DNA from: Candidatus Caldarchaeum sp.
Lineage (GTDB): Archaea; Thermoproteota; Nitrososphaeria_A; Caldarchaeales; Caldarchaeaceae
Direction: 5' to 3'
Assembly: GCA_025058435.1 (NCBI GenBank)
Contig: JANXEM010000043.1
Span: 1-22,906, forward strand
Length of the DNA stretch: 22,906 nucleotides
Under the pieces are notes generated by a model. That model was not told the origin of the DNA, did no database searches, and was given only the letters and a program-made list of their open reading frames with translations. The translations under genes and the position numbers were made by a program. Of this stretch, positions 347 through 17,698 are shown piece by piece (the stretch's first letter is position 1; each line of letters starts with the position of its first letter).

Positions 347-2917
347 TCAGCCCTTCTCTTTACGTTTTACCGCCAGAACGACAGCCGCCGAAAAAACCAG
401 AACAATCAAGAGAAAAGACGGAGCCGACAGACCAGCCCTGACTTCGACGAAGCCTGATTCGGGCCGAACCATGAATTTTTGGCTATGTAAGAAGGTTTTG
501 GCGAGGCCTTCTACGGCGTCGTGGCTGACTTGGTGGAAAACGATGTATCCGTCGCCGTCTGTTTTGCCGCTTGCTTCTACGTGTCCAAGCCCGTTCCGCA
601 ACTCGACTTCGGCGCCGGTCTGCGGCACCCCAAAAAAGTCCACGACCTTCACCGTCACCGGATAAACCCTTAAACCAACCGTGTAAACCCCGGGAGCAGA
701 AACGACCAGCTCGTCCGACGCCTTGACGTCGACTCCGTTGAAAAGGATGCGGAAAATCTGGTTCCGCCCGACCGGAAGCCAAACAGGCTCGAAAGGCCCT
801 ACAACCAGCTCTTCTCCGTCGAAACCTACGGCTATGGTCGACGGGACGGGTCGGTTTTGGCTGTCGACGGTCGCCAGCCGGATGAGCGCTTCTTGGCGGT
901 AGGTTTGTTTGATAGTTTTCGGGCCGTCGACGGAGACCGTAACCCTGTTGTTTCGATGCTCGGCGACGTCGCCAACCATGCCGGTGAAGACAAGCCTCCT
1001 GCCTTCGTCGATGTAAACCACGGGCTCCGCCTCAACCTGGATGACTTCTCCAACTCTGACCCACGATTCGTCGACGCCGCCGGGTCTTTCTACCAATATC
1101 CGTGCTTCTTCAACCCAGTCGGCGACGAGAGTCAAAGGCCCAGTCATGGAAAAATTGCCGCCTTCCAAGTTTCGCCATCCGACGAACCGTACGCGCCTCC
1201 CCTCTCCGACTTCTTCCACGGCTTCCAAGTCGAGTGATACGACCGACCCCTTTTCCATCCATCCCGACTTCAAAGGCAGTCGATGGTCCGACACGACATC
1301 GAGGTAGTAGTATACCCGGTAGCGGGCTGTTATCAAGAGCGGTCCATACACCTTCAAATAAAGGGTCGTCGAGTTGCCCGCATCCGCTGTCCATCTTTCG
1401 AAAACTGCTTTTGTGCCGTTGTTCCAGTAGATTTCCTTTTGGACTTCGACCGATAGTTCCGAGTCGTAGGGGATCCATGAATCCAAAAGAATTTCTCGGC
1501 CATGGCTGGCTTTCACCACGACACGAAATTCAACATCCCATTCCGCCTTCAACCATACAGGGCCTTTTACCGAAACCCGCAAGGTTTTAGAAACATCGTG
1601 GATGCCCTCCGACGAATTAACGGCTTTCAGCCGGTAGCGCATGTTGCCTCCAGTTTCAACCAAACTGGTACGCACGAACAGCTCCGCGATAGAGCCTTCG
1701 TCAAACCAGCCGTCTCCTTCGAAAACATCAAACAACGACTCGACCCAGACACGGTGTTGGCGAACATAGGATGCTTCTACGGCCAAAGGCGTGTCGACGA
1801 CTATTTTCCGGAAATTTTCCTCGTATCCGTCGCTCCACCCCCTGAAGACGAGCCTTGTGTTGTTGCCGAAATCCACGGTTTTGTCCGTCCGGACAAACAA
1901 TTCAGACCCTTTGCGGAACCAGCCTACTATGCCGCCTTCAATCGTCTTTACCGAAACAAAGTAAAACACGTTGTAGCGAGCCACCAGCTCAACGTCCCCC
2001 GACACCACGAACTCCACGCTTCTCGCGTAAACAGTCCTCGACCCAGACAACATCCAATAGCCGAACACCTCCTTCGTCGCGTTGCCGAAGTCGGTTTCTC
2101 CGTCAGCGACGTACCTGAATAAAGTTCCTCGGGGCAGCTTGTATTCTTTCACGAGACGTTTGCCCAGCTCAGACTCTGCGTAAACTTTTATGATGAATGA
2201 CTGGATGCGGCCAGCAACGTGGATGTATGGGATGTTCGGCGGAAGCGAGACTGATTCCGTCGTCGGTCTTCGGAACACGCCGTCCGAAAGCCAAGCGTAG
2301 GCGACTGCGAGAGCGTAGATGTTCAGGGTTGATGGGTATTCCGCGTTGTTCAGCCTTTCGTACATGAGGTCGCCGCCGTAGTTTGAATGACCCAGCCCGA
2401 GGGCGTGTCCGTATTCATGGGCCACGACCTTGTAGGCCGTGGCTGCGTTGCCGCCGACGCATGTCCTCGAGATGCGAATCCAGACCCGGGCTATTTCCAG
2501 GGTTAGCGGATTGTGTCTAATCGACGCGAGGCCGCAGGTTCTTTCGCCCAAAGTCGACACGTATTCGACCGATACGTCGGCTTCGTCGGGCTCAGTCACA
2601 AACACCACGTTCAAAGACAGCAAATACTCATAACCGTAGGCCTCCACGAACACCCTGAAGCTTTCATACCAGACAAGCACTCCACGACGCGCGGACTCAT
2701 CAAAAACTTCAGACCCCGAGGGGAAAAAGTAAACCCGTAACGTGGGCTTCGCCCACGCTCCCAGCAACTCTATCCTACTGTCTGCCGGAGGACCGCTGGC
2801 TTGCTGTTGGACTTGGTAGGAGCTCGCGATGGTAAATTCAAGGTAATGCTGCGTTGGAAACGGAGTAGCTGCCGATATGGTCAGCAGCACAAACAGCAGC
2901 GTTAGCAGCCTAAACAA
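347..2917 (-). CDS. Secreted, membrane-anchored matrixin-like zinc metalloprotease with surface repeats
   Basis: An 856-residue predicted extracellular protease. Residues 1-20 form a signal peptide ([20 protein letters not shown]). The catalytic domain spans roughly 50-210 and has the metzincin motif [11 protein letters not shown] (167-177), giving three zinc ligands and the catalytic Glu, with a Met-turn-like DLMYE around 184-188. From about 235 to 700 come some six divergent modules of about 70 residues with the recurring pattern W-(F/M)-(R/E/D)-KG ... F-x-GW ... GP-(L/V) ... A-(D/R/S)-(Y/W), like the InlB-type B repeats of archaeal surface proteins. A carboxypeptidase-regulatory-like beta domain follows at about 770-820. 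A C-terminal transmembrane helix (about 830-850) ends in KRKEKG, anchoring it in the membrane. The TTG start is forced by an adjacent upstream TAG. Substrate unknown. Confidence 0.85.
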
Positions 2918-9146: not shown

Positions 9147-9701
9147 ATGCGGACTCTCGTCAAATTAGCTCTGAGCATGGCCATAGCATTCGCCGTAACT
9201 TTGTTACATCATTATCTTGAACAGGTTTGGGAAAATCCCCTTCAGCCGGTCATTTTATCCATCACGGTTACGGCCCTTGTCGTAGGGTTTGTCGCGAATT
9301 CGGCATCTGTCGCTGCTTTGGCCACCGTTGTCGGAGGAGCCGCTTCCTTCGTCACGGCCTATTTGCTGGGGTTTAACCTGTGGACGCCTTCGCCGATTCC
9401 ATCAGACCTACCCATAATCAGGAGCTTCATCATCGGTGTGACGGCGATTTTGTCGTCGGGGATTGGATACGTGTCGGCCAACCTCTTCGTCAAAAAGCCG
9501 AAGGAAATCGAGAAAGCTGAGCCAGTTGTTCCGGAACCTGCTAAGCACGAATCGACTGAGCCCGAGCCGGTCGTTGAGCGACCCGTGGTTCCGACACCAG
9601 AGCCGGGCATGAAAATCTGTAAATTCTGTCAAAGCATCATCCCCGCCGAATCGGTTTTTTGCCCGATGTGCGGCGTCAAACTGGTCGAATCTAATGAATA
9701 A
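9147..9701 (+). CDS. Membrane protein with C-terminal zinc ribbon, function unknown
   Basis: A 184-residue protein with three or four hydrophobic helices in residues 1-115 (about 5-20, 33-51, 53-73 and 91-112). A Pro/Glu-rich linker follows (KPKEIEKAEPVVPEPAKHES onward, 116-150), ending in a cytoplasmic zinc ribbon CKFCQSIIPAESVFCPMCG (about 155-173). This layout of membrane helices, acidic linker and rubredoxin-like knuckles is common among uncharacterised archaeal proteins and suggests a membrane-tethered adaptor. It overlaps the start of lhr by 8 nt, so the two genes are translationally coupled. Whether the product tethers the helicase or is simply a neighbour cannot be told. Confidence 0.8.
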   Translation: MRTLVKLALSMAIAFAVTLLHHYLEQVWENPLQPVILSITVTALVVGFVANSASVAALATVVGGAASFVTAYLLGFNLWTPSPIPSDLPIIRSFIIGVTAILSSGIGYVSANLFVKKPKEIEKAEPVVPEPAKHESTEPEPVVERPVVPTPEPGMKICKFCQSIIPAESVFCPMCGVKLVESNE

Positions 9702-12555
9702 CGCGGTCGAAAATGGAGCCGATGTTTTGAACCGTCTGGTCAAACCTCTCAAAGACGCCGTACTTGAAAGGTTCGGCAAACTGACCGAGCCGCAGATTAA
9801 AGCCATTCCCAAACTTCTCGACGGCTCCAACCTTCTGCTGATGGCGCCCACAGGGACGGGCAAAACTGAGGCGGCTTTGCTGCCGCTAATCAACAATTTG
9901 CTGATTTCCGGGGATTTTGAAGGAGTCAAGATTCTCTACATCACGCCGCTCCGGGCTTTGAACCGAGACTTGCTCGACCGTGTGGAATGGTGGGCCAGCC
10001 GTTTCGACATGACTGTTGCAGTTAGGCACGGCGACACCGGAACCCGCGAAAGAAGAACACAATCTCTTTCGCCGCCCACCATCCTCATCACAACACCCGA
10101 AACACTTCAAATCCTGTTGACGGCCCGGCTGTTCCGGGAGCACCTCAAACGGGTTCAAGCGGTGGTCGTTGACGAGGTGCATGAACTGGCCGGTGACAAA
10201 CGTGGAAGCCAGCTTTCGCTGGCCCTTGAAAGGCTTGTCGAGCTGGCGGGCCGTGATTTTCAGAGGGTCGGGCTTTCGGCGACTGTCGGCAGTCCTGAAA
10301 AAATTGCCTCTTTTTTGGCTGGCGTGGGCAGGGAATGGGTGGTCGTCAGAGTTCCGGTGGTCAAGTCTCTTCAGCTTTCGGTGGAATTTCCCTCTCCCGT
10401 TGGAGATGATTTTGAATTAGCGGAAAAGCTTTCGGTCCATCCCGAAGTCGCGGCCCGGATGAATTTGATTAGAAAGTTGGTTGAAAGCCACGAATCCACG
10501 CTCGTCTTCACCAACACCCGTCCTCTCGCGGAAATTCTGACCAACCGGTTCCGGGCATGGGATGAATCAGCCCCCATCGGAATCCATCACGGAAGCCTTT
10601 CGAAAACAACCCGAATCGGCGCGGAGCAGGCCCTCAAATCCGGAGGCCTCGCCGGCGTCGTCTGCACTTCTTCGCTGGAGATGGGAATCGACGTGGGGAG
10701 AATAGAGCTCTGCATTCAGTACAATTCGCCTCGCGAGGTAACGCGTATCGTCCAACGGGTTGGAAGAAGCGGGCACACGGTATCCGGCACCGCGAAAGGC
10801 GTCGTGATTGTCACGGATTCCGACGACGCTTTGGAAAGCATCGTCATCAACAGACGGGCCTACAACGACATGATAGAGGAGGTGGAACTGTTTGAAAATA
10901 GCTACGACGTGCTGGCTCATCAGCTTGCAGGCCTTCTCATCGAACGAAAACAACTAAGCATCGACCATGTGCAGAAGGTTTTCCGCCGTTCATACTGCTT
11001 CCGAAACCTGTCGAAGGAGCAGTTGGTGAAAACTGCTCAACATCTCGAAAAGCTCGGGGCCGCGATACTGACTTCCGACGGAATCTTAGAGACGTCTCCA
11101 AAAACGGCCAACCTCTACGACTACTACTTCAACAACCTCACCATGATACCCGAGGAAAAACAGTACCTCGTCGTCAGCGAATCGACGGGCGAAGCCGTCG
11201 GGATACTCGATGAAGAATTCGTGGCGGAATACGGAGAGCCCGGCACCCGGTTTATCCTGATGGGGAAGGCCTGGGAAATAATTCAGACGGGAGGGGAAAG
11301 AATCTACGTCGCGGCCTTGGACAGCCTCGAAGGAGCTGTTCCTTCGTGGGTCGGTGAAGAAATTCCCGTCCCCTATGAAGTGGCTCAAGAGGTTGGAGCG
11401 GTACGAAGGCGGTATGCAGAAGCTCTGCAAAAAAATAGGGGAGATGAGGAGTTGGAAGCTCTCGCCAAAGAATACCGCGCCGACAAAAACCTGCTGGAAA
11501 AATCTCTTCGAGAGGTTGAAGAACATGTACGTAGGGGGTTGCCGATCCCTTCGGATACGACGGTTTTGCTTGAGGAAACTCCGGAATACATCGTGCTGCA
11601 TGTTTGCGGCGGGTTGAAGCCCAACCGGACTCTCGCTCGGGCCATAGCGTATCATGTTTCCGAAACCCTTGGCGCCGCCGTCACAGTCCAGCAGGACGCC
11701 TACCGGATCGTGTTCAAATCACGTGAAATCACCGCCGAAGCCGTGGCCGAAAGCATCAAAAACCTCGCCGACGAAACGACGTGGCGCTCCGTCTTCACGA
11801 AGGCCGTCGAATCTTCGAGCCTTTTCAGGAGAAGGCTGGTTCACGTGGCGAGGAAGATGGGCATGATCGCGAAGGACGCCAGCATCCTCGACATAAGCGC
11901 GTCGAAGCTCGCGGAAATGCTCAAGGACACCGTGGTCTACGAAGAAGCGCTCAACCATTCTGTTTTCGCCGACTTTGACTCGGCCAGAGCTCATCGACTG
12001 CTGAAGGACATGGCTTCGGGAAATCTCCGCCTTTCGATGATTCGGGATGTCGAACTTTCGCCGCTCGCACGTCTAACGGTCAACCGATATGCAAGCGACA
12101 TCGACGTCATAGCCTCCGAACGTCTGCAAAGGCTTGTCGTCAACGCCGTCCGGGGGAGGTTGAACAACGAACCCTTGACCCTCGTCTGCACCGACTGCTG
12201 GAGCTGGCACCGAAAAATCATCGTCAAAGAAATCGAGCTGAGGCCGGTCTGTCAAGCATGCGGGTCTTCGAAGGTCGGCGTCCTCCGTGAAGAACCCGAA
12301 AAAATCCTGAATCTCCTGGCCCGCAAAGGCAGACCAGCCAACAGAGCTGAAAAATTCCTCAAAAAACAGGCGTCAAAAACCGCTGAACTCGTCGCAAAAT
12401 ACGGAAAAGCGGCGGTCTTCACTTTGGCCAGCAAATTCGTCGACTTGGATGAAGCCGCTCAAATCCTCGAACGAGAACAATCGATAGGAGTCCGGCTTGT
12501 CGAACTCATCATCGAAACCGAAAAAAAGAAAATCCAGTCTATGTTTGCTGCGTAG
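9694..12555 (+). CDS. lhr: Lhr-type superfamily 2 helicase
   Basis: A 953-residue ATP-dependent 3'-5' DNA/RNA helicase of the Lhr family, thought to act at replication forks and in repair. RecA domain 1 has the Q-motif region (LTEPQIKAIPKLL), Walker A APTGTGKT (51-58), TTPETLQILL, the DEVH box (158-161) and GLSATVGSP (about 193-201). RecA domain 2 has VFTNTRPLAEIL, SSLEMGIDVG and motif VI VQRVGRSGH (about 353-361). The long C-terminal half fits the Lhr core (winged helix and beta-bundle). Two cysteine pairs, CTDC (832-835) and CQAC (853-856), form a likely zinc site. The ATG overlaps the upstream gene by 8 nt and the 3' end overlaps the convergent MAGE-like gene by 17 nt. Confidence 0.93.
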   Translation: MNNAVENGADVLNRLVKPLKDAVLERFGKLTEPQIKAIPKLLDGSNLLLMAPTGTGKTEAALLPLINNLLISGDFEGVKILYITPLRALNRDLLDRVEWWASRFDMTVAVRHGDTGTRERRTQSLSPPTILITTPETLQILLTARLFREHLKRVQAVVVDEVHELAGDKRGSQLSLALERLVELAGRDFQRVGLSATVGSPEKIASFLAGVGREWVVVRVPVVKSLQLSVEFPSPVGDDFELAEKLSVHPEVAARMNLIRKLVESHESTLVFTNTRPLAEILTNRFRAWDESAPIGIHHGSLSKTTRIGAEQALKSGGLAGVVCTSSLEMGIDVGRIELCIQYNSPREVTRIVQRVGRSGHTVSGTAKGVVIVTDSDDALESIVINRRAYNDMIEEVELFENSYDVLAHQLAGLLIERKQLSIDHVQKVFRRSYCFRNLSKEQLVKTAQHLEKLGAAILTSDGILETSPKTANLYDYYFNNLTMIPEEKQYLVVSESTGEAVGILDEEFVAEYGEPGTRFILMGKAWEIIQTGGERIYVAALDSLEGAVPSWVGEEIPVPYEVAQEVGAVRRRYAEALQKNRGDEELEALAKEYRADKNLLEKSLREVEEHVRRGLPIPSDTTVLLEETPEYIVLHVCGGLKPNRTLARAIAYHVSETLGAAVTVQQDAYRIVFKSREITAEAVAESIKNLADETTWRSVFTKAVESSSLFRRRLVHVARKMGMIAKDASILDISASKLAEMLKDTVVYEEALNHSVFADFDSARAHRLLKDMASGNLRLSMIRDVELSPLARLTVNRYASDIDVIASERLQRLVVNAVRGRLNNEPLTLVCTDCWSWHRKIIVKEIELRPVCQACGSSKVGVLREEPEKILNLLARKGRPANRAEKFLKKQASKTAELVAKYGKAAVFTLASKFVDLDEAAQILEREQSIGVRLVELIIETEKKKIQSMFAA

Positions 12556-13141
12556 CCGTTTCGCGGCCGTTCTGCATTTCGGTCAACGATTTGAAAAGCT
12601 GTTTCTGGTCAACTTCGGCAACGGCTCTCCAGCCCACCGAAAGCGTGCCGTCGCCAGAATCAACCAGATAACCCCTTCTCACGAACTTTTCCAAAGCGGC
12701 GTCGACCCGCCACTTTGGCAACTTCGACTCCAAAAGCTCGCTAACCTCCCTCTTTGGTGCTTTACCTCCCCTCGAAAAGAGGATTGCGAGGGCCCCGGAA
12801 AGGACTGCGAGCTCGTCGACACGCCATCCAGCGGCCACCACGTCCGACAAGCTAATGGGGTCGGCTAAAGTGATGAAAAACCTCGCCCGGTCGTAATCTT
12901 CGTCCGTTGGCTCTCGGTCGAACGACGTTTCGAAGAGGATTTTGACGCGGAGGCCGAGGTTTTCGAGGCGGTGGTTGAGGCTTTCGACGACTTTGAGATA
13001 GTTTTTTCCCAGCTTCCGGCGGAGTTCGTAGCCACGCACTCCCGGTAGACGATGGCTGGTGAACAAAAGCATGGCCATGGCCGTCGAGAGCTTCTTTCGT
13101 GCCGCCGACTGCTCCGGCTTACTGTCAGACAATTCGACCAC
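12539..13141 (-). CDS. Nse3/MAGE-like tandem winged-helix (KITE) protein of an SMC complex
   Basis: A 200-residue protein read as two winged helices: WH-A at about 16-95 (KKLSTAMAMLLFTSHR, RGYELRRKLG) and WH-B at about 108-177. WH-B resembles the eukaryotic MAGE/Nse3 domain in order and pattern. VLSGALAILFSRGGKAPKRE parallels the MAGE stretch of a hydrophobic helix followed by GN-x-AP-x-E-E-x-W. ALEKFVRRGYLV parallels the MAGE helix ending in KYLEYR. GTLSVGWRAVAEVD parallels the YEF-x-WGPRA-x-AE strand. Nse3 belongs to the KITE group, which binds the kleisin of SMC complexes. It is last in the operon, starts at GTG and overlaps the kleisin-like gene by 17 nt. The gene is certain and KITE likely; MAGE relationship is read by eye. 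Tail 180-200 looks disordered. Confidence 0.72.
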   Translation of the reverse strand: MVELSDSKPEQSAARKKLSTAMAMLLFTSHRLPGVRGYELRRKLGKNYLKVVESLNHRLENLGLRVKILFETSFDREPTDEDYDRARFFITLADPISLSDVVAAGWRVDELAVLSGALAILFSRGGKAPKREVSELLESKLPKWRVDAALEKFVRRGYLVDSGDGTLSVGWRAVAEVDQKQLFKSLTEMQNGRETATQQT

Positions 13142-13889
13142 CTTCTTGAACGGCCACAGCCAGCGATGAAACGGTTTTCCTCGTTCTTTTCCGCTCGTAG
13201 GGAATTAGTAGTATTTCACCCGACAACGGGTTTTTGTTCAGCTCCGCCAAACCTTCGCTGACGACGAAAGCGGTGTAGTAGGCTCTTTCGAAAACTTTTT
13301 CCGGCCCCTGCCTGTTCACGAATGCGACGTAATCCACCGTTCCCGATTGATTCCGCATCTCAACCATTTCTTCATGGATTTTCTTCAGCTCTTCTTGGAT
13401 TTGCTCCCGGAGCTGGAAAATCTCCGGAAGGCCTTTCAACCCGATTTCATCCATCGCCGAAACCTGGGATTCCTTGACGAATGATTTGCTCGGCAGAGAA
13501 TGGAAATGTTCCATACCTTTTGCGAACATATAGGGCGTGAGCTGCTCTGACGTAACGATGGGCCTCCAGCTGCTGACGAAAGCCGTTGCGAGGGATTTTT
13601 TGTCGGCGGCGAGGACTTTCAGAGCGATAACTTGGCTGTCGACGAAAAGCGAGGACGCCCTATCTTTCAGCCATTTGTGCTGCAGGGCAACGATTAAAGC
13701 GACCCGGTAAAGGGTTTCTGCGTCGAGGACGAGAATCTCCGAGTTACGGGCCTTTTCCAGTATGTTGCGGAGTTTCGCGAGCATAGATTTTACGTCGACG
13801 TTGTAGGGGTCTGTCCCCGTTTTCGCCACGGTTTCGCAGAGGGCGATGAGCCGTTCCAGCTCTTCCTTAGCCACTTTGACGTTGGTCAC
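13125..13889 (-). CDS. Nse4-like kleisin of an SMC complex
   Basis: A 254-residue protein between the SMC and KITE genes, overlapping both. Its ends match the two functional ends of eukaryotic Nse4. Near the N-terminus, EILVLDAETLYRVALIVALQ (51-70) resembles the Nse4 EAVLDAxFLxLAS helix that touches the SMC neck. Near the C-terminus, VDYVAFVNRQGPEKVFERAY followed by YTAFVVSEGLAEL (185-217) matches the Nse4 winged-helix pattern F-(V/I)-x-(N/D)-P-x-S-F-x-(Q/R)-TVEN-(I/L)-F-x-x-SF-(L/I)-(V/I)-(R/K)-DG-x-A. The middle holds a helix (LPEIFQLREQIQEELKKIHE) that may be the KITE-binding region. The length suits a small kleisin. It starts with GTG inside the SMC 3' end (23-nt overlap). Without SMC context I would call it unknown; with it, kleisin is the best reading. 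Confidence 0.72.
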   Translation of the reverse strand: MTNVKVAKEELERLIALCETVAKTGTDPYNVDVKSMLAKLRNILEKARNSEILVLDAETLYRVALIVALQHKWLKDRASSLFVDSQVIALKVLAADKKSLATAFVSSWRPIVTSEQLTPYMFAKGMEHFHSLPSKSFVKESQVSAMDEIGLKGLPEIFQLREQIQEELKKIHEEMVEMRNQSGTVDYVAFVNRQGPEKVFERAYYTAFVVSEGLAELNKNPLSGEILLIPYERKRTRKTVSSLAVAVQEGGRIV

Positions 13890-15621
13890 TCGCCAAAACC
13901 TCCGCCTCCTCTGTGGCGAAAACCGCTGAACGGCCTTTGACGCTCTGCACGACGATGACGTTCATGTCCTCGGAATACGGGATTTTCCCCGGCGTTATGA
14001 TTATGTACTGGGTGTCCGAATCTGTCTTCGCCGCCGAAGTTAGGATGTTGATGATTCTTTCCCTGTTGAGCGGGTCGAGATGAACGTCGAATTCATCGAC
14101 TGCTCTGAAGGGTGATTTGATGTATTTCTGGAGGGCCAGCAGGAATGCCATGGTGGCGACAATCCTTTCTCCGCCGCTTTGTGTATGGGTGTCGAGGAGA
14201 GTCGGCTCCACTCCCCTGAACCCGACGTAAATCTCTATCGACGCCTTTTCGATGTCGTTGAGGTTTCGGAGCTCGATTCTGCCAGCGCCTCCGACAACCG
14301 AAAGAATCCTCTGGTACTCTGGCTCGACCGCCGCAGCCAGCCCTCTTACGAATTGCCTCCATTTTTCCTTCCTGTATTCGGCTTCCGCATAGGTTTCCCG
14401 GGCGTTTTCCCGGAGTTGCTGGGCTTTAAGCTCCGCTTCCCGGAACTTCGATTCAGCTATCAGATACATTTCTTCGGCCTGCGGTGTCGGTGCCCCGAGA
14501 GCCGCAATCTGCAGCCCCACCGCCTTAAGCTCTTCGGCGATTTCAGCGGGTTTCCGGCTGGTTTCAACCCTCGAGCCTTTCGACTGGGCCTCCGACATCC
14601 TTCTCAAAACCTCCTTCTCCACAGCCGACAGCTCGTAACGCAAATCCCGCAGCTCCGATTCACGGATTTCCTTCCGCTCCAACGCCCTTCCAAGGGCTTC
14701 AGCCGCCTTGACGATGCCGTCAAGCCTTTCAATCAAGATTTTTTCCGACGCGCGTTCCCTGAAACCGGTCAACAAACCCTGATAGAACGACGAAACGCTG
14801 TTGGTTGCTTCGTTGATTTTTGCGTCGATCGTTTCCACCTCATTCCTTATCGCCGTCATCTTCTCCGTTATACGGTCTCGCGATTTTTCAGCTTCCTTTA
14901 CCAAGGCCCAGAGATGTTCCAGCTCGAGGCTGTTTCTCTGTTGCTCCAGCTTCTTCAACACCGTCAGTTTTTCGTATTCTTCCTTCCAGTAGTCGACCGC
15001 CGCCCGCGCGTCCTCCAAAGTCTTCCTGATTATCGCCTCTTCGGCCAGCAAAGCCGACAACTTCGCTTCGGTATCTCGTATCTTCTCCCGCAGCCCGCCG
15101 GCTCCAACCGCCTCCTCAACCATCGACAGCTTTTCCCTGCTGTCTCTGCTGACGAATTGTTCTATCATGTTTTGATGCATGATGATGAGGATGTTGTCGG
15201 CGTTGATTCCGATTTTGGAAAGCATGTTTTCGACTTCTGCCTTTGTTTTGAAACGGTTGTTTACGTAATGCCAGTATTCGCCGGTCTTTTTTAGAAACCG
15301 GACGATGGAGACCGTGTCTGATGAAACGGATGGAATTGGGCGGACTCCGTTGACGGGCCTGTTGTCGAAGATTACGGCCACTCTTGCCGCTTCGGCGCCT
15401 CGTCGGATGAGGTCGCTGAGCCTTTGGCCGCGTTCGGTGTATGTTTGTCCGAGGGCTACCGATATAGCTAAGAGGATGGATGATTTGCCCGCTCCGTTGG
15501 GCCCGACGATGACGTTGAGGCCTCGGCGGAAGGGGATTCGGTTGTATTCGTGCGACATGAAATTCTCGAGGATAACTTCTCTGATGAAGGCCTTGGGCCG
15601 AGGCTCTGAACCGGCTGACAA
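13867..15621 (-). CDS. Short SMC ATPase related to Smc5/Smc6, no clear hinge
   Basis: A 584-residue ABC ATPase of the SMC/Rad50 class. Head parts: IREVILENFMSHEYNRIPF (13-31), Walker A GPNGAGKSS (40-48), Q-loop MHQNMIEQF (148-156), signature QSGGERIVATMAFLLALQ (481-498), Walker B FRAVDEFDVHLDPLNRERI (505-523) and QYIIITPGKIPYSEDMNVIV (558-577). The NFM-H opening, QSGGER-x-VxTM, PFR-x-VDEFDV-x-(L/M)D and final ITP-K-x-PYSE-x-M-xV are hallmarks I associate with Smc5 and Smc6, not with condensin, cohesin or Rad50. The arms are short (about 180-430 in all), with no 150-residue hinge and no cysteine anywhere, so no zinc hook. TTG start with a strong TATA box 29 nt upstream. First gene of the operon, overlapping the kleisin-like gene by 23 nt. 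A single SMC gene implies a homodimer. Confidence 0.85.
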   Translation of the reverse strand: MSAGSEPRPKAFIREVILENFMSHEYNRIPFRRGLNVIVGPNGAGKSSILLAISVALGQTYTERGQRLSDLIRRGAEAARVAVIFDNRPVNGVRPIPSVSSDTVSIVRFLKKTGEYWHYVNNRFKTKAEVENMLSKIGINADNILIIMHQNMIEQFVSRDSREKLSMVEEAVGAGGLREKIRDTEAKLSALLAEEAIIRKTLEDARAAVDYWKEEYEKLTVLKKLEQQRNSLELEHLWALVKEAEKSRDRITEKMTAIRNEVETIDAKINEATNSVSSFYQGLLTGFRERASEKILIERLDGIVKAAEALGRALERKEIRESELRDLRYELSAVEKEVLRRMSEAQSKGSRVETSRKPAEIAEELKAVGLQIAALGAPTPQAEEMYLIAESKFREAELKAQQLRENARETYAEAEYRKEKWRQFVRGLAAAVEPEYQRILSVVGGAGRIELRNLNDIEKASIEIYVGFRGVEPTLLDTHTQSGGERIVATMAFLLALQKYIKSPFRAVDEFDVHLDPLNRERIINILTSAAKTDSDTQYIIITPGKIPYSEDMNVIVVQSVKGRSAVFATEEAEVLASDQRQSG

Positions 15622-15791: not shown

Positions 15792-16922
15792 ATGTCTCAG
15801 GAGCTGGAACGGATAGCGGCTTCGAGGGCCCGTGAAGCGGTTAACTTCGACAAACTTGGTCAAAGACACAAAGCGATAAAGTCCTACCGGGAAGCAATCG
15901 ACGTTCTCTGGAAGCTCTACCGTCTATCGCCCGACGGAAGCGTCAAAAAAATTTACGCAGACAAAATCAAGGAATACCAGAACCGCATCGAAGAGCTTCA
16001 AAGCGATTCAGCGCCAGCGGTAACCATTTCGCCGGAAATATCGCCGGAACCATCCCCCGCAACCAAACCGTCCAGCCTTTCAAGGGAAAAACCCAACGTC
16101 CACTGGGACGACATCGTAAACATCGAAGAAGCCAAAAAAGCGATACGAGAAAGCATCGTCTTCCCCACCAAACGGCCAGACCTGTTTCCTCTGGGATGGC
16201 CACGCGGCATCCTGTTGTTCGGGCCGCCGGGATGCGGGAAAACTCTTCTGGCCGCGGCCGTCGCCTCCGAGCTTGACGCCAGCTTCTACGTCCTCGACGC
16301 GGCAACTGTGATGTCGAAATGGCTCGGCGAATCGGAGCGGAACATTTCCAAAGTTTTCAACCAGTGCCGTCAGGAGGCGAGAACGGGGAAGCCATGCATC
16401 ATTTTCATCGACGAAATCGATTCGCTTACCACTGAAAGGTTCATGGAAGTTGGCGGAGAAGCCCGTGTCAGGAACCAGCTCATCAAGGAGATGGACGGTA
16501 TTTTGGACAAGGGTCGTAAAGATTTTCTCTACGTGTTGGCGGCGACCAACAAGCCGTGGCATCTTGACGAGCCTTTTATCAGGAGGTTTCAGAAGAGGAT
16601 TTTTGTTCCTCTACCAGACCTCGAAGCCCGTAATCTACTGTTCCAGAAATACACGAAAGGGTTGCGTATGGACAGCAACGTGGAGCTTTCCCAACTGGCG
16701 AAGATAACCGACGGCTATTCGGCCGCCGACATCCACGACATCTGCATGGAGGCCCAGCTCAAAGTAGTCAGCGAATTCTTCGCATCCAACTCAGGCGAAA
16801 AAGGAGAACCAAGAATGCTGACGATGGACGACTTTATGGAAATCATCAAGAAAAGAAAACATTCGGTCGTTCTCGAAAACCTCAAAAAACTCCTCGACTG
16901 GAACGCAAAACACGGCACCTAA
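15792..16922 (+). CDS. cdvC: CdvC, Vps4-like AAA ATPase
   Basis: A 376-residue AAA ATPase that remodels ESCRT-III polymers during archaeal cell division. Residues 1-70 form a three-helix MIT domain (AREAVNFDKLGQRHKAIKSY, KIYADKIKEYQNRIEELQ) that binds the CdvB tail. A Pro/Ser linker (71-100) leads to the AAA domain: PNVHWDDI, Walker A GPPGCGKT (144-151), pore-loop region MSKWLGESERN (174-184), Walker B CIIFIDEID (202-210), sensor AATNKPW, and the arginine-finger region IRRFQKRIFVPLPD. The C-terminal helix region resembles Vps4. Length is normal. It is divergent from the Smc5/6-like operon and convergent with cdvB, overlapping its stop by 4 nt. No cdvA lies in the window. Confidence 0.95.
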   Translation: MSQELERIAASRAREAVNFDKLGQRHKAIKSYREAIDVLWKLYRLSPDGSVKKIYADKIKEYQNRIEELQSDSAPAVTISPEISPEPSPATKPSSLSREKPNVHWDDIVNIEEAKKAIRESIVFPTKRPDLFPLGWPRGILLFGPPGCGKTLLAAAVASELDASFYVLDAATVMSKWLGESERNISKVFNQCRQEARTGKPCIIFIDEIDSLTTERFMEVGGEARVRNQLIKEMDGILDKGRKDFLYVLAATNKPWHLDEPFIRRFQKRIFVPLPDLEARNLLFQKYTKGLRMDSNVELSQLAKITDGYSAADIHDICMEAQLKVVSEFFASNSGEKGEPRMLTMDDFMEIIKKRKHSVVLENLKKLLDWNAKHGT

Positions 16923-17698
16923 GTCGCTTCAGCTGTCTCCAGCTGGATCAGGCCTTTTTCGTGAAGGCTTTTCAACGCCTCGGATACAGCCTCCGCGTCG
17001 AGTTTGAGCTGTGAGGCGCATGCTTCGAGGTCAAGTTCGTCGAGGTTGTTTTCAGATACATACCTATAGACGGCCTTCTCCACATCCGTTAGCTTAGGCG
17101 CTTCGGGGAATGATTGAAGGATTTTCTCCGCGGCGATTCTCCTTGCCTGCTCCAGAACGAAAGATGCTTCTTCCGATGTCTCCGCAACCCTGTCGGAAAC
17201 AGGCTCAACGTAGACTCCGGCCGAAGACATAAAATCATCTATCATGCCCATCAAGCTTCTGAGGTTTTCCGAAGCTTCGGGAGCGACGTCCTTGATTTCG
17301 TCGACGACGTTTTCGAGCATCGCCGCTAAAGGCCTTATCAGACTTAGAGCCTCACCCAGTTCGAGAATGCTTTCAAGCCGTATCTTGACCTGCAGCAGAA
17401 CCAACTGGCTGTGCAAAACTATTCCGGCCAGCTTCTTAATTTCCGCGATTTCCGACGCGTAGATCTTGGCTTTTTCATCGTCTTTCGCCTGAAGTGCTTC
17501 GACCGTTCTTTCGAAATATTCCCGGCTCCGTGCGAGCATTTCGCGGTATTTGTTGTTGAGCCTCTCGATGTGGGCGTTCAAAGTTGTCACCGCTTTTTCG
17601 ACTCGGCCCTTAAACTCGTCGGTTAGCTCAACCGGCTGGAAAAATTGCTGTTCCTCCTGTCCCACCCATTCATTTTTCTTCTTCAGAAATCCCAGCAT
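16919..17698 (-). CDS. cdvB: CdvB, ESCRT-III (Snf7-family) division protein
   Basis: A 259-residue ESCRT-III homologue that polymerises at the division septum. Residues about 20-190 form the helical Snf7-type core: a basic first helix pair (FKGRVEKAVTTLNAHIERLN, KYREMLARSREYFERTVEAL), then KIYASEIAEIKKLAGIVLHS and acidic later helices (NVVDEIKDVAPE, GMIDDFMSSAG). A short Pro-containing linker SFPEAPKLTD (196-205) could hold the MIT-binding motif for CdvC. Residues 203-256 form the winged helix typical of full-length CdvB (VEKAVYRYVSENN, LDAEAVSEALKSLHEKGLIQ), which in Sulfolobus-type archaea recruits to CdvA. The presence of the winged helix marks it as CdvB rather than a short paralogue. ATG start with a TATA-like box 23 nt upstream. 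Convergent with cdvC. Confidence 0.92.
   Translation of the reverse strand: MLGFLKKKNEWVGQEEQQFFQPVELTDEFKGRVEKAVTTLNAHIERLNNKYREMLARSREYFERTVEALQAKDDEKAKIYASEIAEIKKLAGIVLHSQLVLLQVKIRLESILELGEALSLIRPLAAMLENVVDEIKDVAPEASENLRSLMGMIDDFMSSAGVYVEPVSDRVAETSEEASFVLEQARRIAAEKILQSFPEAPKLTDVEKAVYRYVSENNLDELDLEACASQLKLDAEAVSEALKSLHEKGLIQLETAEAT

Follow-up and report, generated by a model that had tools for sequence, protein, structure and literature searches.

A three-gene archaeal operon resembling a minimal Smc5/6-type SMC-kleisin-KITE complex

Three overlapping genes in a 22,906-nucleotide stretch of DNA from Candidatus Caldarchaeum sp. (the window) very probably encode a minimal, complete Smc5/6-type SMC-kleisin-KITE complex, comprising a homodimeric SMC, an Nse4-like kleisin and a homodimeric KITE. 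Smc5/6 is a DNA-repair machine of human cells; among the SMC complexes of eukaryotes it is widely regarded as the one least well understood. The Smc5/6-type reading is supported by matched contrasts, made for all three subunits, with the canonical Smc-ScpAB operon of the same genomes. The three genes, which an earlier note on this DNA had described as overlapping and lying on one strand, were confirmed at the following positions, and are given here with their main features and the adjacent helicase gene.

15621..13867, minus strand: SMC-type ATPase of the Smc5/6 group, hinge-less (start TTG, 584 aa)
15481..15504, minus strand: Walker A motif GPNGAGKS, SMC residues 40-47 (sequence; the 39 aligned SMCs all share G40-G43 and G45-S47)
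14347..15093, minus strand: inter-head stretch, approximately SMC residues 177-425 (by eye, two short coiled-coil arms and a tip)
14164..14178, minus strand: ABC signature SGGER, SMC residues 482-486 (sequence; S482-E485 invariant in the 39)
14074..14103, minus strand: Walker B and D-loop AVDEFDVHLD, SMC residues 507-516 (DEF, D509-F511, invariant in the 39)
13889..13125, minus strand: kleisin of Nse4 type (start GTG, 254 aa)
13608..13889, minus strand: N-terminal helical domain of the kleisin, residues 1-94, with the SMC neck as its presumed binding site (model helices 2-24, 33-46 and 50-94)
13197..13439, minus strand: C-terminal winged helix of the kleisin, approximately residues 151-231, with the SMC cap as its presumed binding site
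13141..12539, minus strand: KITE (tandem winged helix) of Nse1/Nse3-MAGE type (start GTG, 200 aa)
12866..13120, minus strand: KITE winged helix 1, residues 8-92 (AlphaFold2 model, mean pLDDT 89.7)
12632..12850, minus strand: KITE winged helix 2, residues 98-170 (AlphaFold2 model)
9694..12555, plus strand: Lhr-type helicase, a conserved convergent neighbour and possible partner (Pfam DEAD, DEAD_assoc, WH_Lhr)

The genes follow one another in the order SMC-kleisin-KITE, the first two overlapping by 23 nt and the last two by 17 nt. Of 58 loci, made up of the window and 57 fetched relatives, 53 have the complete trio with order and strand kept; this count includes locus L053, whose KITE is truncated by the contig end. 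The trio is incomplete at or near a contig edge in L015, L049 and L051, whereas L026 and L029 contain the SMC and the kleisin with no detectable KITE although the contig continues. None of the 57 relatives is named as belonging to Asgard archaea. For the alignments A1-A3, sequences at least 85 per cent identical to a kept one were removed, as were the fragmentary KITE of L053 and SMC of L049, after which 36 of the 53 KITEs, 46 of the 56 kleisins and 39 of the 58 SMCs remained. Host genomes were reached from 26 of the 57 loci. Each of the 26 has one full SMC of the Smc5/6 type and one match to the KITE profile; a second, partial SMC match was found in one genome only (G015). In one of two phyla the operon occurs in 127 of 300 genomes, in the other in 21 of 28. 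Many of the archaea that carry it come from hot springs.

The window SMC matches Pfam SMC_N (2.8e-36), and Q150 is invariant across the 39 aligned SMCs in addition to the motif residues listed above. The yeast Smc6 equivalent of the Walker B and D-loop segment is DEFDVFMD; in the window SMC, E510 of this segment is the catalytic glutamate. When the SMC profile (A3) was compared with the sequences in the PDB, the best chains of Smc5 and Smc6 scored highest (219 and 215 bits), followed by prokaryotic Smc (171), Smc2 (152), Smc1 (126), Smc3 (120), Smc4 (108) and Rad50 (58). The profile of the canonical SMCs (A6) gave 681 bits for Smc, 493 for Smc2, 442 for Smc3, 418 for Smc4 and 397 for Smc1, compared to 142 for Smc5 and 130 for Smc6. 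In a tree of 21 of the 58 operon SMCs, computed after removal of columns with at least 30 per cent gaps and containing only three eukaryotic sequences, the operon heads group with yeast Smc5 and Smc6 (support 88.8/96). The AU test rejects a grouping of Smc5/6 with the canonical SMCs to the exclusion of the operon SMCs (p 0.013), while the SH test on the placement is not significant. Smc5 lies closer than Smc6 to the operon SMCs (98.1/91), whose own monophyly is weak (48.9/67), but nothing is deduced from this, since the sisterhood of Smc5 and Smc6 is not rejected (AU p 0.209). Judged by sequence, the operon SMC heads belong to the Smc5/6 clade, in agreement with the assignment in the earlier note.

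The same note called the ATPase short, which is correct, and was silent on its lack of a detectable hinge. The distance from Walker A to the signature has a median of 447 residues in the operon SMCs; in the canonical SMCs, of which 16 of 20 were measured, the median is 1008 and the minimum 642. The printed minimum for the operon SMCs is 252 residues; the median is the figure relied on. The SMC_hinge family is not matched by the window SMC (E up to 1) or by four of the longest relatives (E up to 0.5). It is likewise absent among the 25 of 81 matched families listed for the 39 SMCs, a list that could miss a match confined to one or two sequences.

Searches of the PDB with phmmer, using the single window kleisin or KITE, gave weak matches, and profiles were therefore used. 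Among the Pfam families matched by the kleisin relatives, Nse4_C is the most frequent, with 25 of 46 matching at E up to 1 (best 1.7e-4); the window kleisin itself is not among the 25, and the match of one relative, P0121, falls short of the Pfam cut-off. The top PDB sequences found with the kleisin profile are Nse4 and EID3/NSE4B (8.9e-5 to 2.8e-4), and in a further profile search the four best were again Nse4/EID3 (3.8e-5 to 1.2e-4). Furthermore, the best two chains found by Foldseek with the kleisin model are Nse4. Neither ScpA nor Rad21 is among the 25 of 40 families listed for the 46 kleisins, and ScpA is not matched by the window proteins. At the level of profiles and of the predicted fold, the kleisin, proposed earlier to be Nse4-like, is of the Nse4 (delta) type.

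The KITE belongs to the Nse1 and Nse3/MAGE families. Its relatives most often match the Pfam families MAGE (15 of 36) and SMC_Nse1 (12 of 36); one of them, P0003, scores 26.2 bits and so exceeds the Pfam cut-off for MAGE of 25 bits. The best PDB sequences and folds are those of Nse1 and Nse3/MAGE. ScpB is not among the 25 of 32 families listed for the 36 KITEs, nor is it matched by the window proteins. The original description of this protein as Nse3/MAGE-like is to be corrected: the KITE is equally near Nse1 and Nse3/MAGE, so that it is best named a single stand-in for both. These proteins have no RING: the window KITE contains no cysteine, and none of 53 KITEs has four or more.

The three genes could also be a divergent second copy of the ordinary Smc-ScpAB, their likeness to Smc5/6 being due to convergence or to retained ancestral traits. 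This is improbable, although two observations favour it. All 20 fetched canonical loci have the same gene order (SMC, an ORF of 143-233 aa, ScpB), and the kleisins of the two operons are related (hhalign probability 97.1), the N-terminal domain of the operon kleisin aligning to the canonical N-terminus. Direct homology of the KITE with canonical ScpB is not claimed, as the hhalign probability is only 20.7. The family preference, however, is opposite for all three subunits. The canonical kleisins (19 of 20 aligned, L110 excluded) match ScpA in 12 and Rad21_Rec8 in 10 of 19 cases, and Nse4_C does not occur in their full family list. The canonical KITEs match ScpB in 20 of 20 cases, the 25 of 47 families listed for them include neither MAGE nor Nse1, and a canonical SMC hinge was matched in 10 of the 26 genomes. 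The pattern DEF[DE] is present in 55 of 57 operon SMCs with a C-head and in 1 of 20 canonical SMCs; the corresponding numbers for the [ILV]TP motif are 55 of 57 and 0 of 20. Moreover, the AU test rejects a grouping of the operon SMCs with the canonical SMCs without Smc5/6 (p 0.024). The operon contains neither a hinged SMC of the canonical clade nor partners of the ScpA or ScpB families. The earlier statement that the genes resemble Smc5/6 subunits rather than ScpA/ScpB is strengthened by canonical loci of the same genomes that prefer the opposite families.

The window operon is flanked by the helicase and by a Vps4-like ATPase, and has no fourth gene. A convergent Lhr-type helicase lies at most 300 bp from the operon end in 22 of the 47 loci with room for it. 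The Vps4/CdvC-like gene was considered as a functional clue and discarded: among the 50 loci that extend more than 3 kb upstream, only L002 has a relative of it. The ORF beyond it has relatives in 2 of the 50 (L002 and L046), and in L040 relatives of both genes are found downstream of the operon. That the operon restricts foreign DNA, as a defence module like Wadjet/MksBEFG or Lamassu, is very unlikely in view of these flanking genes, neither of which is an effector, of the window kleisin and KITE, which have no PADLOC match at E up to 0.01, and of the single copy in each of the 26 genomes and a presence in the two phyla that is more even than expected of a defence system. Least likely is a Rad50/RecN/ASRP-like repair ATPase with two small neighbours unrelated to kleisins and KITEs: the short, hinge-less build, similar in size to RecN, and a match to the NCBIfam Rad50 model (7e-22) favour it, but the tree separates the heads from eight Rad50-like sequences (97.4/99; six have CxxC, and the identity of the eight is taken without profile confirmation), Rad50 scores far below Smc5 with the SMC profile, a CxxC zinc hook is absent from residues 181-430 in all 58 operon SMCs (the window SMC has no cysteine at all), and both neighbours have kleisin and KITE folds.

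An Smc5/6-type complex best explains what is observed: the genes and their conservation, the profile matches, the predicted kleisin and KITE folds, the one-copy status and the presence of a second, canonical SMC operon. The explanation would entail complex formation, probably at an SMC:kleisin:KITE stoichiometry of 2:1:2, clamping and a role in repair. The Nse4-like kleisin would link one SMC, at its neck, with the other, at its cap, and a KITE homodimer would stand in for Nse1 and Nse3. If the complex works like the solved KITE complexes, ATP would bring the two SMC heads together, with DNA on top of them, the kleisin and KITE would close over the DNA as a clamp, and ATP hydrolysis would reset the clamp. 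Lacking a hinge, the complex would have no large SMC ring or only a tiny one, so that a DNA clamp, tether or short-range folder is to be expected rather than a long-reach loop extruder. Such a complex may work in DNA repair or under replication stress, next to the ordinary condensin Smc-ScpAB.

It is possible, and is suggested here tentatively, that the operon is a living equivalent of the state before the SMC and KITE duplicated, namely a homodimeric, hinge-less Smc5/6 core clamp, probably with an Lhr-type helicase, existing beside the Smc-ScpAB condensin. If so, an old duplication of a whole operon split two archaeal operons of the same order, one leading to cohesin/condensin and the other to Smc5/6. 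The operon bears on the origin of the Nse subunits and would be a simple model of how Smc5/6 began. The individual contributions of the hinge, the second SMC, the second KITE and the SUMO/ubiquitin subunits could be studied with it. Purification and structure determination could be simpler for a three-protein homodimeric version than for the eukaryotic complex, and the conserved helicase neighbour is a concrete functional lead.

A study by van Hooff et al. (Cell Rep 44:115855, 2025; preprint 2024) reportedly deals, by its title, with the archaeal ancestry of the SMC complexes of eukaryotes; the archaeal kleisin and KITE may already be described there. The SMC component itself is not new. 'SMC5/6-related' is the name given to an archaeal SMC grouping with eukaryotic SMC5 and SMC6 in the passages on it by Yoshinaga et al. 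2022 (PMC9389158), which mention neither a partner operon nor a missing hinge; the word kleisin does not occur in the paper. That SMC is probably of the same family as the window SMC.

Among other systems, ASRP/coalescin (ClsN) and Arcadin-4 resemble the operon SMC in being archaeal members of the SMC superfamily, and the NCBIfam ASRP model matches the window SMC (5.8e-15). According to a passage in PMC9389158, a zinc hook is present in the great majority of ASRPs; in the operon SMCs, unlike in ASRPs and Rad50, the region 181-430 is free of CxxC. The JetD nuclease beside a Jet/Mks-type kleisin and KITE, by which Wadjet/MksBEFG is recognized, was not found at the window operon. Smc-ScpA-ScpB shares with the operon the three-gene order, a homodimeric design, a related kleisin and the host genomes, but has longer arms, a hinge, partners of the ScpA and ScpB families, and heads that go with Smc1-4 rather than with Smc5/6. 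The eukaryotic Smc5/6 core (Smc5, Smc6, Nse4, Nse1, Nse3) has two SMC and two KITE genes where the operon has one of each, and the operon lacks RING cysteines and a detected hinge. The Nse2 marker zf-Nse is absent from the 26 operon genomes, but also from 14 control genomes. The operon had been proposed to be a relative or ancestor of Smc5/6; 'ancestor' says more than the results do, whereas profiles, folds and tree all point to a relative, which has in common with the eukaryotic core the group of its SMC heads, a kleisin of the Nse4 type and a KITE of the Nse1/Nse3 type.

The three genes of the operon overlap and lie on one strand of the window, which comes from a Caldarchaeum-like contig:

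15621..13867, minus strand, SMC gene, overlapping the kleisin gene
13889..13125, minus strand, kleisin gene, overlapping both the SMC and the KITE genes
13141..12539, minus strand, KITE (tandem winged-helix subunit) gene, overlapping the kleisin gene

Scanning a species-level genome collection yielded 57 related loci, in records named Caldarchaeum, Pelearchaeum, Terraquivivens, Wolframiiraptor, Calditenuaceae, Hadesarchaea, Bathyarchaeota, Geothermarchaeota, Methanomethylicota and Methanodesulfokora, among others. The closest, L001, has a best segment of 96 per cent identity across the SMC. All three genes are present in the same order in 53 of 58 loci (the relatives and the window), which bears out the three-gene operon proposed in the earlier note. 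Two Calditenuaceae-named loci, L026 and L029, contain the SMC and kleisin, but the KITE was not detected there, though the contig extends further. The kleisin profile matches 127 of 300 genomes sampled from the phylum of a Nitrososphaeria-named record (G018), 126 at E < 1e-36 and one at 9.8e-4. The window's SMC family, here called new-type, is found in 21 of 28 genomes (as a partial protein in one of the 21) from the phylum of the Hadesarchaea-named G011. The Bathyarchaeota-named G015 has a second, partial Smc5/6-like SMC (403 bits, C137:3105-4364), which may represent either a paralogue or contamination.

The SMC was claimed to be of the Smc5/6 type, and the profile ranking agrees. A 39-member profile searched against the PDB scored 219 bits with yeast Smc5, 215 with yeast Smc6, 215 with human Smc6 and 183 with human Smc5, followed by Pyrococcus Smc (171), Smc2 (152), Smc1 (126), Smc3 (120), Smc4 (108) and Rad50 (58). 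The organisms are those to which we take the chains to belong, the search output giving molecule names alone. The profile of canonical SMCs, those of the ordinary Smc-ScpA-ScpB operons of the same genomes, produced the reverse ranking: Smc 681, Smc2 493, Smc3 442, Smc4 418, Smc1 397, Smc5 142 and Smc6 130 bits. With the window SMC singly, Smc5 (119) and Smc6 (107) are still on top of Smc (98), with narrower margins. The Walker B sequence DEF[DE] occurs in 55 of 57 new-type SMCs compared to 1 of 20 canonical ones, and a downstream [ILV]TP in 55 of 57 compared to none of 20, so that at the sequence level the two motifs tell the families apart. Yeast Smc6 carries both, and yeast Smc5 reads DEIN and ITP. 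Because the ATPase motifs are invariant across 39 aligned members, the new-type SMC is predicted to be an active ATPase.

The phylogeny of the heads (53 sequences, 353 columns) included 21 new-type and 20 canonical SMCs, eight Rad50-like sequences, Pyrococcus SMC, and yeast Smc5, Smc6 and Smc2, the last as the N-head alone. The new-type SMCs branch with yeast Smc5 and Smc6, as the earlier note anticipated (SH-aLRT 88.8, UFBoot 96; three eukaryotic sequences in the tree). The canonical SMCs join yeast Smc2 and Pyrococcus SMC (96.1/98), and the Rad50-like sequences stand apart from both groups (97.4/99). Grouping Smc5/6 with the canonical SMCs is rejected by the AU test (p 0.013) but not by the SH test (0.056); grouping the new-type SMCs with them gives 0.024 and 0.061, respectively. 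Sisterhood of Smc5 and Smc6 stays unrejected (0.209). Eukaryotes are thinly sampled in this tree, but a published one shows the same grouping, uniting SMC5, SMC6 and archaeal 'SMC5/6-related' SMCs with support of 100/0.99 (PMC9389158). The earlier note was unsure whether the system had been described. The SMC is already published as SMC5/6-related; the operon's kleisin and KITE were not described in the literature searched, and van Hooff et al. 2025 may well cover them. That work (preprint 2024; Cell Rep 2025), judging by its title, reportedly concerns archaeal ancestors of SMC complexes. The database proteins returned are named hypothetical or uncharacterized, except P0049, which bears an unrelated transport name.

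The new-type SMC appears to be built without a hinge. SMC_hinge was unmatched in a Pfam search of the window SMC and, at E up to 0.5, in four of the longest relatives, and it is absent among the best 25 of 81 families listed for 39 members. None of 58 new-type proteins has a CxxC within residues 181-430. The spacing from Walker A to the signature has a median of 447 residues; among the canonical SMCs, for which 16 of 20 gave a value, the median is 1008 and the minimum 642. RecN is a comparable design lacking a hinge. Seven canonical SMCs (L118, L119, L120, L123, L124, L125 and L127) have 732-791 residues, which is roughly two thirds of what is usual. SMC_hinge is matched by the L123-L125 proteins, and a hinge match is absent from the genomes of L118-L120 and L127.

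The genes neighboring the operon, and examples of a family found next to its relatives, are as follows:

window 9694-12555, plus strand, Lhr-type helicase (DEAD, DEAD_assoc and WH_Lhr matches), convergent with the operon
window 15792-16922, plus strand, Vps4/CdvC-like ATPase (MIT and AAA), divergent from the SMC
window 16919-17698, minus strand, 259-residue ORF, unmatched in Pfam at E up to 0.001, by appearance possibly ESCRT-III-like
L047:9265-9945, minus strand, ~234-residue family
L046:9055-9765, minus strand, ~234-residue family
L035:9223-9930, minus strand, ~234-residue family

Among the 47 loci with at least 1.5 kb past the operon end, the helicase is convergent and within 300 bp in 22 (window included), at a distance of 300 bp to 6 kb in another 9, farther in L037, and missing from the available sequence in 15. 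The close linkage occurs in Caldarchaeum-, Hadesarchaea-, Geothermarchaeota-, Nitrososphaeria- and Methanodesulfokora-named records. The ~234-residue family is present in 15 loci; in 11 of them, outside Caldarchaeum, it sits immediately upstream of the SMC in divergent orientation. Three members scanned had no Pfam match, and the family is a possible accessory factor. The window's upstream arrangement of ATPase and 259-residue ORF is common to L002 only. Farther off, a large ORF (347-2917, minus strand, 856 residues) matches matrixin-type (M10) metalloproteases at 5.5e-7 and by eye contains repeated domains.

Each of the 26 host genomes has one full new-type SMC and, by the KITE profile, one KITE, so both are expected to be homodimers. 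According to a review of SMC structure (PMC10512200), the kleisin of SMC complexes binds one SMC at its neck and the partner SMC at its cap, DNA is clamped by ATP-joined heads, kleisin and KITE, and in Smc5/6 Nse3 does most of the clamping. By analogy, the kleisin would bridge the two SMCs here in the same neck-to-cap manner, and the ATP-joined heads, kleisin and KITE homodimer would clamp DNA. Because a large ring needs a hinge, it is expected to be missing or small, which would make clamping and tethering likelier than long-range extrusion. From the analogy with Smc5/6 and the helicase neighbor, we infer a putative role in DNA repair.

The same genomes provide the comparison with the canonical operon. 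ScpB is encoded in 23 of 26; in G012, G017 and G026 it was not found and the canonical SMC search gave nothing better than the new-type match itself, which may reflect genome incompleteness. The canonical middle ORFs (19 aligned) match ScpA in 12, Rad21_Rec8 in 10 and Nse4_C in none, and each of the 20 canonical KITEs matches ScpB, with MAGE and Nse1 absent among the best 25 of 47 families listed. Since the family matches of canonical SMC, kleisin and KITE oppose those of the new type, all three subunits sort alike, as expected from the claimed likeness to Smc5/6 rather than ScpA/ScpB, a concordance that chance would hardly produce. The common gene order of the two operons would fit an old duplication of the whole operon. 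Some archaeal Smc complexes are argued to function without a kite (PMC7055376); here, however, ScpB directly follows the SMC and a kleisin-sized ORF of 143-233 residues in all 20 canonical loci fetched (L108-L127).
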